DNA from: Balneolaceae bacterium
GTDB lineage: Bacteria > Bacteroidota > Rhodothermia > Balneolales > Balneolaceae
Length of the DNA: 64,000 nt
Assembly (NCBI GenBank): GCA_007693745.1
Contig: REDA01000062.1
Coordinates: forward strand, 1 to 64,000
Direction of reading: 5' to 3'
The notes below the pieces were generated by a model. That model made no database searches. It saw only the letters and a list, made by a program, of their open reading frames with translations, and was not told the origin of the DNA. Every line of letters starts with the position of its first letter. The first letter of the stretch is position 1. Both the position numbers and the translations under genes were made by a program. Shown here piece after piece: positions 43,591 through 45,294 of the stretch.

Positions 43591-44799
43591 TTACGCTGCA
43601 ATTACTTTCGATACCTCTTCTGCAGCTTCTTTCAACAATACGGCTGAGATCACATTCAGTCCGCTCTCGTCGATTATCACCTTGGCTTCTTCCGCATTGG
43701 TTCCCTGAAGGCGTACAATAATGGGTACATTCGCCACTTTTGCCGCAATTTCGGGATCTTTGATCGCCTCAATCACACCATTGGCTACTCGGTCGCACCG
43801 AACAATTCCGCCAAAAATATTGATCAGAATCGCCTTCACATTGGGATCCTCGAGGATAATCCGGAATCCGTTTTTGACGGTCTCCACATTGGCACCTCCG
43901 CCCACATCCAGAAAATTGGCCGGTTCACCGCCCGACAGTTTGATGATATCCATCGTGGCCATCGCAAGTCCGGCACCGTTCACCATACAACCCACATTTC
44001 CGTCAAGTTTGATGTAATTGAGATTATACTTCGAAGCCTCAACTTCTGCCGGATTCTCTTCCGACAGGTCACGAAGTTCCTGAACATCCTTGTGGCGATA
44101 GAGAGCATTGCCGTCGAATGTTACCTTGGCATCCAGCGCCATCACATCCCCGTCTGATGTAAGTACGAGGGGATTGATTTCCACCATATCCGCATCCTTT
44201 TCTACGTAGAAACGATAGAGTGCCGTGATAAACCGCACTGCTTTTTTAAACGCATCGCCCTCAAATCCAAGAGAGAACGCCAGCCTTCGGGCCTGGTTGC
44301 CCTGCAGGTCAAAGCCCGGCTCAACCCACTCTTTCACAATTTTTTCCGGGGTCTCCTCAGCTACAGTCTCAATCTCCACACCCCCTTCAGTGGATACCAT
44401 AATCACATTTTTACTATTGGCCCGGTCGAGCAGGATTCCCAGATAGAACTCCTTTTCAATCCCCACGCCATCGGTTACGTAAATGGTTTTCACCTCCTGA
44501 CCCTCATCACCGGTCTGAATGGTTACCAATACGTCGCCAAGCAGCGATTCCGCTGCAGAACGCACCTCTTCGATGGTCTTGCAGAGAATTACACCTTTTG
44601 CATGACTCTGCTTTGTGCGTCCCTTTCCACGTCCGCCTGCATGAATTTGAGCTTTAACAACAAAAAGAGCCGATCCCTTTGCCTGCATCTCCTCAGCCGC
44701 TTTTACAGCATCCTCCACACTATTTGCCGCAACTCCCTCGGGCACGGCGATCCCATATTCTTTGAATAATTCTTTGGCTTGATACTCGTGAATTTTCAT
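43591..44799 (-). CDS. sucC: Succinyl-CoA synthetase beta subunit
   Basis: The 402-residue ATP-grasp subunit makes ATP or GTP from succinyl-CoA in the citric acid cycle. [12 protein letters not shown] at the N-terminus, [12 protein letters not shown] and the C-terminal [12 protein letters not shown] motif are typical. The frame continues upstream to 44880, but the canonical opening fixes the start at 44799. The alpha subunit gene sucD is not adjacent. Confidence 0.96.
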
Positions 44800-44873
44800 G
44801 ATTCGGCAGACTTTTAATAATAATTCAGATTTCTGTAACAATTTGGAAGGGGGCTTTGACAAACAAAAAACTA

Positions 44874-44987
44874 TGCGCAAGACCGAGGTGAAAACAGATT
44901 TAATTCCGCAGCGTATTTACGATACGAGAGGCAGTTAAATGTGCGACAACAAAGATGTTGGCAGAAAAACAGTTTCTCAAAGCCAAC
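44874..44987 (+). repeat. Intergenic repeat, copy A
   Basis: This copy aligns along its full length with copy B, roughly 70 percent identical by eye. Shared blocks include GCAGCGTATTT, GATACG, GAGG, AGAT.TTGG and CAGTTT.TCAAAG. Near its centre it can form a CGTAT-N5-ATACG hairpin (44912-44926). Confidence 0.75.
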
Positions 44988-45175
44988 GGGAAAAATAGCC
45001 AAATCATCAGGTAAATAAAAGTAATGCTCTCACCAATCCCTGAGTAAGATCACCTCCGGCCACCCTGTCGCACAATTCCAAAAGGATTCAGTGACTAAAA
45101 ATCATTTTTTCAACATTATCAATTCATTTTTTTCTACATTTACTATACGGGGGAAACGTGATAAAGCTGAAGTTT

Positions 45176-45294
45176 TGTGCAGGATCAAGGCGAAAGCATT
45201 TTTTATTACAGCAGCGTATTTGTGATACGTGAGGAATTTTAAATTTTCGCCAACGGAGATATTGGGCAAAGCGACAGTTTTTCAAAGTCCCAAC
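45176..45294 (+). repeat. Intergenic repeat, copy B
   Basis: This is a second copy in the same orientation, starting about 300 bp after copy A. It keeps the central CGTAT-N5-ATACG hairpin (45215-45229) while the loop sequence differs. A flanking pair GGCGAAA/TTTTCGCC gives an additional outer stem, so the unit may act as a structured RNA or DNA element. Confidence 0.75.

Follow-up and report, generated by a model that had tools for sequence, protein, structure and literature searches.

Two repeat copies between sucC and a histidine kinase gene

In the window, the 64,000-nucleotide stretch of Balneolaceae DNA that was analysed, sucC (minus strand, likely ATG start near 44799) and the gene for a PAS-domain histidine kinase (plus strand, from 45490) are divergent, and the gap between them holds two copies of a repeat (Table 1). 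An earlier note, made from the letters alone, described two direct copies about 300 bp apart at this place, with roughly 70 percent identity. Both observations hold: the copies align locally with a score of 55, compared with a maximum of 24.5 among 1000 dinucleotide-shuffled pairs, and their identity is 71% across 128 aligned columns. The retained central hairpin and flanking blocks were also read correctly, as both copies carry GCAGCGTAT-N5-ATACG-N-GAGG. A third copy is indeed missing from the window, where the 24-mer finds only these two sites even at 3 mismatches (0.01 expected). The unit, however, was put at 114-119 bp; it is about 140 nt long and has inverted ends that had been missed, which in copy 1 read GGGGGCTTTGACAAAC ... 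GTTTCTCAAAGCC.

The scores in Table 1 come from covariance model R1, which was built from 18 sequences including other family copies and none from the window. Both R1 and a second model, R2 (built on the 68 model-aligned matches described below), were calibrated on little sequence, so that their E-values are rough. The flanks of copy 1 match at 4 of 5 positions, a likeness that is not significant alone and proves nothing alone.

Table 1. Repeat copies and their parts in the gap between sucC and the histidine kinase gene (positions in the window)
Feature	Position	Strand	Remarks
Copy 1, probable decayed foldback MITE of ~140 nt	44849-44987	+	R1 49.1 bits, E 2.6e-10 at 44872-44969; 77% to family consensus
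Copy 2, probable decayed foldback MITE of ~140 nt, left outer arm heavily worn	45149-45292	+	R1 52.0 bits, E 4.5e-11 at 45174-45273; 80% to family consensus
Core hairpin, copy 1	44908-44931	+	GCAG-CGTAT-N5-ATACG-A-GAGG
Core hairpin, copy 2	45211-45234	+	GCAG-CGTAT-N5-ATACG-T-GAGG
Box A, copy 1	44884-44890	+	CGAGGTG, worn from CAAGGCG; covariance-model alignments
Box B, copy 1	44947-44951	+	CAACA, worn from CAACG; covariance-model alignments
Box A, copy 2	45186-45192	+	CAAGGCG, intact
Box B, copy 2	45251-45255	+	CAACG, intact
Possible worn 5-bp target duplication of copy 1, left half	44844-44848	.	TGGAA
Possible worn 5-bp target duplication of copy 1, right half	44988-44992	.	GGGAA

Each window copy is nearer to the family consensus than to the other window copy, and as each other's relatives they rank only 25th and 55th of 100. 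Because each is closer to other copies of the family, the two are independent insertions and neither is the closest relative of the other.

A dispersed family of small foldback elements

One of the options in the earlier note, a dispersed palindromic element, was the right one, as 101 distinct elements were recovered by profile HMM among the loci fetched from the genome. The exact core occurs at 6 sites in the whole genome. With blastn, 40 near-full-length places are found, of which three have the same sequence throughout their 140 nt, and a covariance-model scan gives 99 matches at E<=1. The best copies run from GGGGGCTTTGAAAAAC to GTTTTTCAAAGTCTCC, about 140 nt, and have terminal inverted repeats. 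The whole unit forms a foldback (DNA fold z -7.6), and none of 200 shuffles folds equally well. Among the 58 elements with enough flank, target duplications of exactly 5 bp are perfect in 13, compared with 0.21% by cross-pairing, and none of these elements has a target duplication of 6-9 bp. All 30 copies whose context was examined are intergenic according to a crude ORF caller. The element contains no transposase gene; 140 nt is too short for one, and no ORF of at least 80 aa runs across the two window copies.

One contig of the window's assembly (G000:C41:1-140) has the first base of a copy as its own first base. The repeats are therefore a probable cause of breaks in the assembly, which may show fewer copies than the genome really has. 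In a large subfamily of the same genome (L012, L015, L022 and L031 among others), the core stem CGTAT..ATACG is replaced by CCTGTTTGCCAACCG, while the boxes and the GCAG and TGAGG loops are kept. Thus, the core stem is not always needed.

A core module shared with other phyla and with ERIC

The core module has three motifs in a fixed order: box A (AAGGC), C-GNAG-stem-loop-stem-TGAG-G, and box B (YAACG). Its hairpin stands over an asymmetric internal loop, C-GNA-G / U-GA-G, which may be read as sheared G.A pairs. Besides this loop and the two boxes, TA..TA in the top stem is fixed. A scan of a species-genome collection with a core pattern of 19 fixed bases gave 56 stretches, while about 2 are expected by chance (our own arithmetic). 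They come from Balneolales, Sedimentibacter, Alkaliphilus, Bacillus, Ruminiclostridium, Rickettsia and other alphaproteobacteria, Nitrospirota, Desulfovibrio, Fibrobacter, Rikenellaceae and others, and a few look chance-like. The core thus recurs in dispersed elements of Bacillota, Pseudomonadota, Nitrospirota, Desulfovibrio, Fibrobacter and others, with arms and ends that vary from group to group. Box A ([AG]AGG[CA]) and box B ([CT][AG]ACG) lie outside the search pattern; both are present in 33 of 58 matches or, when each group is reduced to a single copy, in 10.6 of 23 groups compared with 0.50 after shuffling. R1 has matches at E<=1e-4 in all 15 source genomes, with 1 to 74 copies in each. 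At this threshold it also hits 31 of the 198 genomes from the window's phylum, and at E<=1e-5 it hits 66 of the 398 from Pseudomonadota. Among viral contigs scanned for the core, the GGAGCGTAC form is found in 10 and the GCAGCGTAT form in 0; the element of the Balneolaceae genome has no match in phage and plasmid records.

The fold of the module is supported by covariation across families. In alignment A1, made with MAFFT and no structure, compensatory change is already seen in 17 of 27 pairs. It is seen in 23 of the 27 among 68 model-aligned matches, with a covariation of 0.566 compared with 0.174 for shuffled and at most 0.137 for slid pairs, in an alignment that was fitted to the covariance model and so leans towards structure. 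A1 consists of 18 rows picked by hand, L007 and 17 of the 56 scan loci. Loci that were poorly aligned, odd or chance-like were dropped: L053, L062 and L076 after consideration, and L044, L045, L049, L051, L065 and L074. Where a species had further copies, most of these were unused. A2 comprises 61 loci chosen from those fetched, with L135, L137, L139, L140, L142, L144, L145, L147, L149, L151 and L155-L166 omitted, and A3 comprises 29 of the 30 loci L220-L249, with L242 omitted. An excess of G.U in A2 and A3 was set aside, because these alignments were fitted to a model that rewards G.U.

The motif order of ERIC, which we took to be similar to that of the core module, prompted a test. On one E. 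coli ERIC, R1 scores 13.5 bits (E 0.66) and R2, which contains no ERIC rows, 22.0 bits (E 0.0034 over 54 kb; best noise 13.9). ERIC is detected by blastn in 13 of the 398 Pseudomonadota genomes. When R2 was run over these 13 whole genomes, with 150 candidates scored per genome, ERIC places listed by blastn were found at E 8.1e-7, 8.8e-6, 3.2e-5, 2.0e-4, 2.3e-4 and 0.0064, although the matches at E<=1 cover only 6 of the 24 places that blastn scored as ERIC. Plain similarity is nearly absent: the best blastn match of the 127-nt ERIC to any R2 training row, the window's family included, has E 0.08 and covers the core only. Thirty R2 loci were fetched from the 13 genomes (L220-L249), of which 16 are ERIC by blastn at the match, and many of the others have the common core GGAGCGTAC-N5-GTACGTGAGG. 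Several aligned ERIC copies read GCAAGGCGGC ... GGAGCTTAC..GTAAGTGA ... GCCAACGCAGC, and covariation is strong over 31 rows of ERIC and non-ERIC loci together.

A second enterobacterial repeat, with the core GGAGCGTAC-N5-GTACGTGAGG and without box A, is found in the ERIC-bearing genomes, at L220-L222, L234, L237, L244 and L247, and in the ten viral contigs (L350-L359).

ERIC (also IRU or RU-1) is likewise an intergenic foldback, of 127 nt, and at equal places of the fold it has box A AAGGCG, the core G-GA-G-CTTAC..GTAAG-T-GA-C and box B CAACGC. It differs in its ends, TATACCC ... GGGTATA bounded by TA, whereas the window's family has GGGGG ends and a 5-bp duplication; its core loop is 2x2 rather than 3x2, and there is no overall blastn similarity. 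The window's family is therefore not ERIC proper, having neither TA-bounded ends nor similarity to the consensus. Box A, the core hairpin and box B, in this order on one covarying foldback, are proposed here as the mark of an ERIC superfamily, and they are found in the window (by R1) and in ERIC (by R2). ERIC very probably belongs to this cross-phylum superfamily as one branch, even though many single ERIC copies score poorly. MITEs and ERIC are kinds of element already known. No literature that joins ERIC to repeats of other phyla was found among open-licence papers, and a literature text search for GCAGCGTATTT returned only papers on unrelated subjects, as judged by title.

The likeness to ERIC could also be convergence, with long hairpins of similar loops having arisen separately and the window's element being an ordinary lineage-specific MITE. 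The shortness of the common sequence, of which blastn sees so little, and the weak scores of many single ERIC copies would suit this explanation. It has to account, however, for three distinct motifs that agree in their order and in their positions within the fold, with GCAAGGCGGC ... GCCAACGCAGC among them in several ERIC copies, and for whole-genome E-values down to 8e-7, and we regard it as unlikely.

The range of ERIC itself is given as Enterobacteriaceae and Vibrionaceae by a review among the papers used (PMC10969869, PMC2267715, PMC2229807, PMC3733652 and PMC4923244). The Rfam family RF02818 (V_AS5, Vibrio RNA AS5) matches ERIC (L124:2000-2123), scoring 48.1 bits (E 2.8e-8) on an E. coli ERIC and 41.6 bits on another ERIC copy, so that V_AS5 appears to be built on a Vibrio copy of ERIC type. 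Even ERIC stays below the gathering score of this family (96), and the window copies are unmatched by it.

Ends, movement and the role of the core

While the core is shared, the ends are not. The ERIC and Rickettsia copies are bounded by TA, as read by eye. Palindromic, terminator-like direct repeats of 19-40 bp flank the copies in 8 of 18 Sedimentibacter loci and 1 of 3 Alkaliphilus loci, a count in which loci too near the locus end (L052, L056) were skipped. Together with the 5-bp type of the window's family, this makes at least three insertion signatures around one core, and different families presumably use different transposases. At the palindrome-flanked loci (L038, L040, L059, L061, L071, L086, L089 and L092 in Sedimentibacter, L039 in Alkaliphilus), two direct copies resembling a terminator hairpin enclose the element, as if insertion had duplicated the whole terminator. 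These copies also have an extra small hairpin at the left end.

The ends of the Sedimentibacter and Alkaliphilus relatives resemble what we take to be IS1182-type ends. According to passages of PMC4923244, IS1272 and other members of the IS1182 family target palindromes or terminators, so that the relatives and IS1182-type elements are alike in where they insert; for IS1272, however, that paper reports no duplication of the target, and in the relatives a stretch of 19-40 bp is duplicated. Small, non-coding, dispersed elements with inverted ends are also found among the bacterial MITEs (Correia/NEMIS, RUP, YPAL, bcr1), a likeness drawn from descriptions in review passages. REP/RAYT repeats are described in part of PMC3733652 as a palindrome of 20-40 nt with a GTAG- or CGTC-type tag, whereas the window's unit is a 140-nt foldback with a 5-bp duplication.

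In the Balneolaceae genome, which is 95% complete, neither a DDE_Tnp_1 transposase nor a Tn3 transposase (DDE_Tnp_Tn3) was found. Tn3-derived miniature elements (TIMEs), as we understand the family, have ends starting with GGGG and a 5-bp duplication as in the window's family, but no Tn3 transposase was found in the window's genome. A search for a parent element with the same ends gave 97 end-like sites in the genome, among which no insertion sequence was recognised by eye.

A different mode of movement, single-strand transposition guided by hairpins as in IS200/IS605 or REP-RAYT systems, would read the core as a DNA hairpin. It would suit the asymmetry of the motif, with its conserved unpaired bases on one strand. 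The exact 5-bp duplication, however, points to staggered double-strand cuts, and copies show no clear replication strand bias either in genome G402 (20 plus and 20 minus over 0-2.7 Mb; 16 plus and 13 minus over the rest) or in genome G434 (26 versus 18 by skew-defined arms, counted by hand); genome G207 was dropped from this test because its skew was too noisy. Movement of this kind is very unlikely.

Selection on structure, which the earlier note had suggested from the two copies, is borne out across families and phyla by the compensatory changes above and fails among the dispersed copies of the Balneolaceae genome. In these 101 copies, single changes that leave G.U (189) are no more frequent than those that leave A.C (193), kept double changes are only slightly above the shuffled number (50 versus 40 +- 5.4), and wear in the boxes is about equal to that in the remainder of the element. 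Selection thus seems to act on copies that spread and not on those that have landed. As the dispersed copies give no sign of selection on structure, the core probably serves the spread of the element and not the kinase or sucC. Most likely, the repeat is a selfish element whose core helps movement or tolerance. A transposase acting in trans would read the ends and move the element, and the module would work for the element during spread, either as a folded transcript or as an extruded DNA hairpin. The reader of the core could be a widely conserved host factor or the transposition machinery. After landing, copies would decay neutrally, and no regulatory role for sucC or the kinase would be needed. 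We consider it probable that the window repeats are old independent insertions of a non-autonomous element (MITE) of about 140 nt that is moved in trans, shares a conserved module across phyla and with ERIC, and decays neutrally once landed.

The small RNA family and the binding site array that were also proposed for this locus find no support. A cis-acting or small RNA maintained here by selection, with the histidine kinase or sucC as its regulated target, is suggested by the place of both copies, in the divergent gap with the core hairpin retained, and by passages of reviews in which ERIC copies of Yersinia affect mRNA stability through RNase E. That effect fits occasional side effects at single loci. 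About 100 copies lie beside many other genes, and they have no constant orientation towards the adjoining genes (+E+ 24, -E- 31 in four small sets that disagree, with crude ORF calls). Rfam has 0 matches in the window at the gathering score and none over the elements in 10 loci. As the drifting copies also lack an excess of G.U over A.C, regulation from this locus is highly improbable. A local duplication without function, to which the 300-bp spacing might point and for which the earlier note had looked to a lack of further copies, is excluded by the further copies and by the mutual ranks of 25 and 55 of 100.

A wider reading, tentative and somewhat doubtful, is that the structured module, about 100 nt long, is a genomic parasite that is both ancient and modular, occurs across bacterial phyla and has repeatedly changed its transposon ends (5-bp, TA-bounded and palindrome-duplicating). 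The core would then define the lineage and would have to bind something that nearly all bacteria have, and ERIC would be only its enterobacterial branch. If the core does outlive changes of ends, the middle of this parasite, and not its mover, would define it. Strain typing makes wide use of ERIC, and the relatives of ERIC in many phyla, some with identical and so probably recent copies, offer new systems in which to look for the transposase and for the factor reading the core. With the three-motif model, annotation can also detect such elements where plain similarity search fails.

Two minor observations concern the arrangement of single copies. Tandem runs of three copies each are found at L081 (core starts 2126, 2277 and 2427; period about 150), L076 (1724-2011; about 103) and L240 (1252-1583; about 125). 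In a Bacillus genome, a copy (L047:4279-4378) lies amid the tRNA genes of a tRNA cluster.
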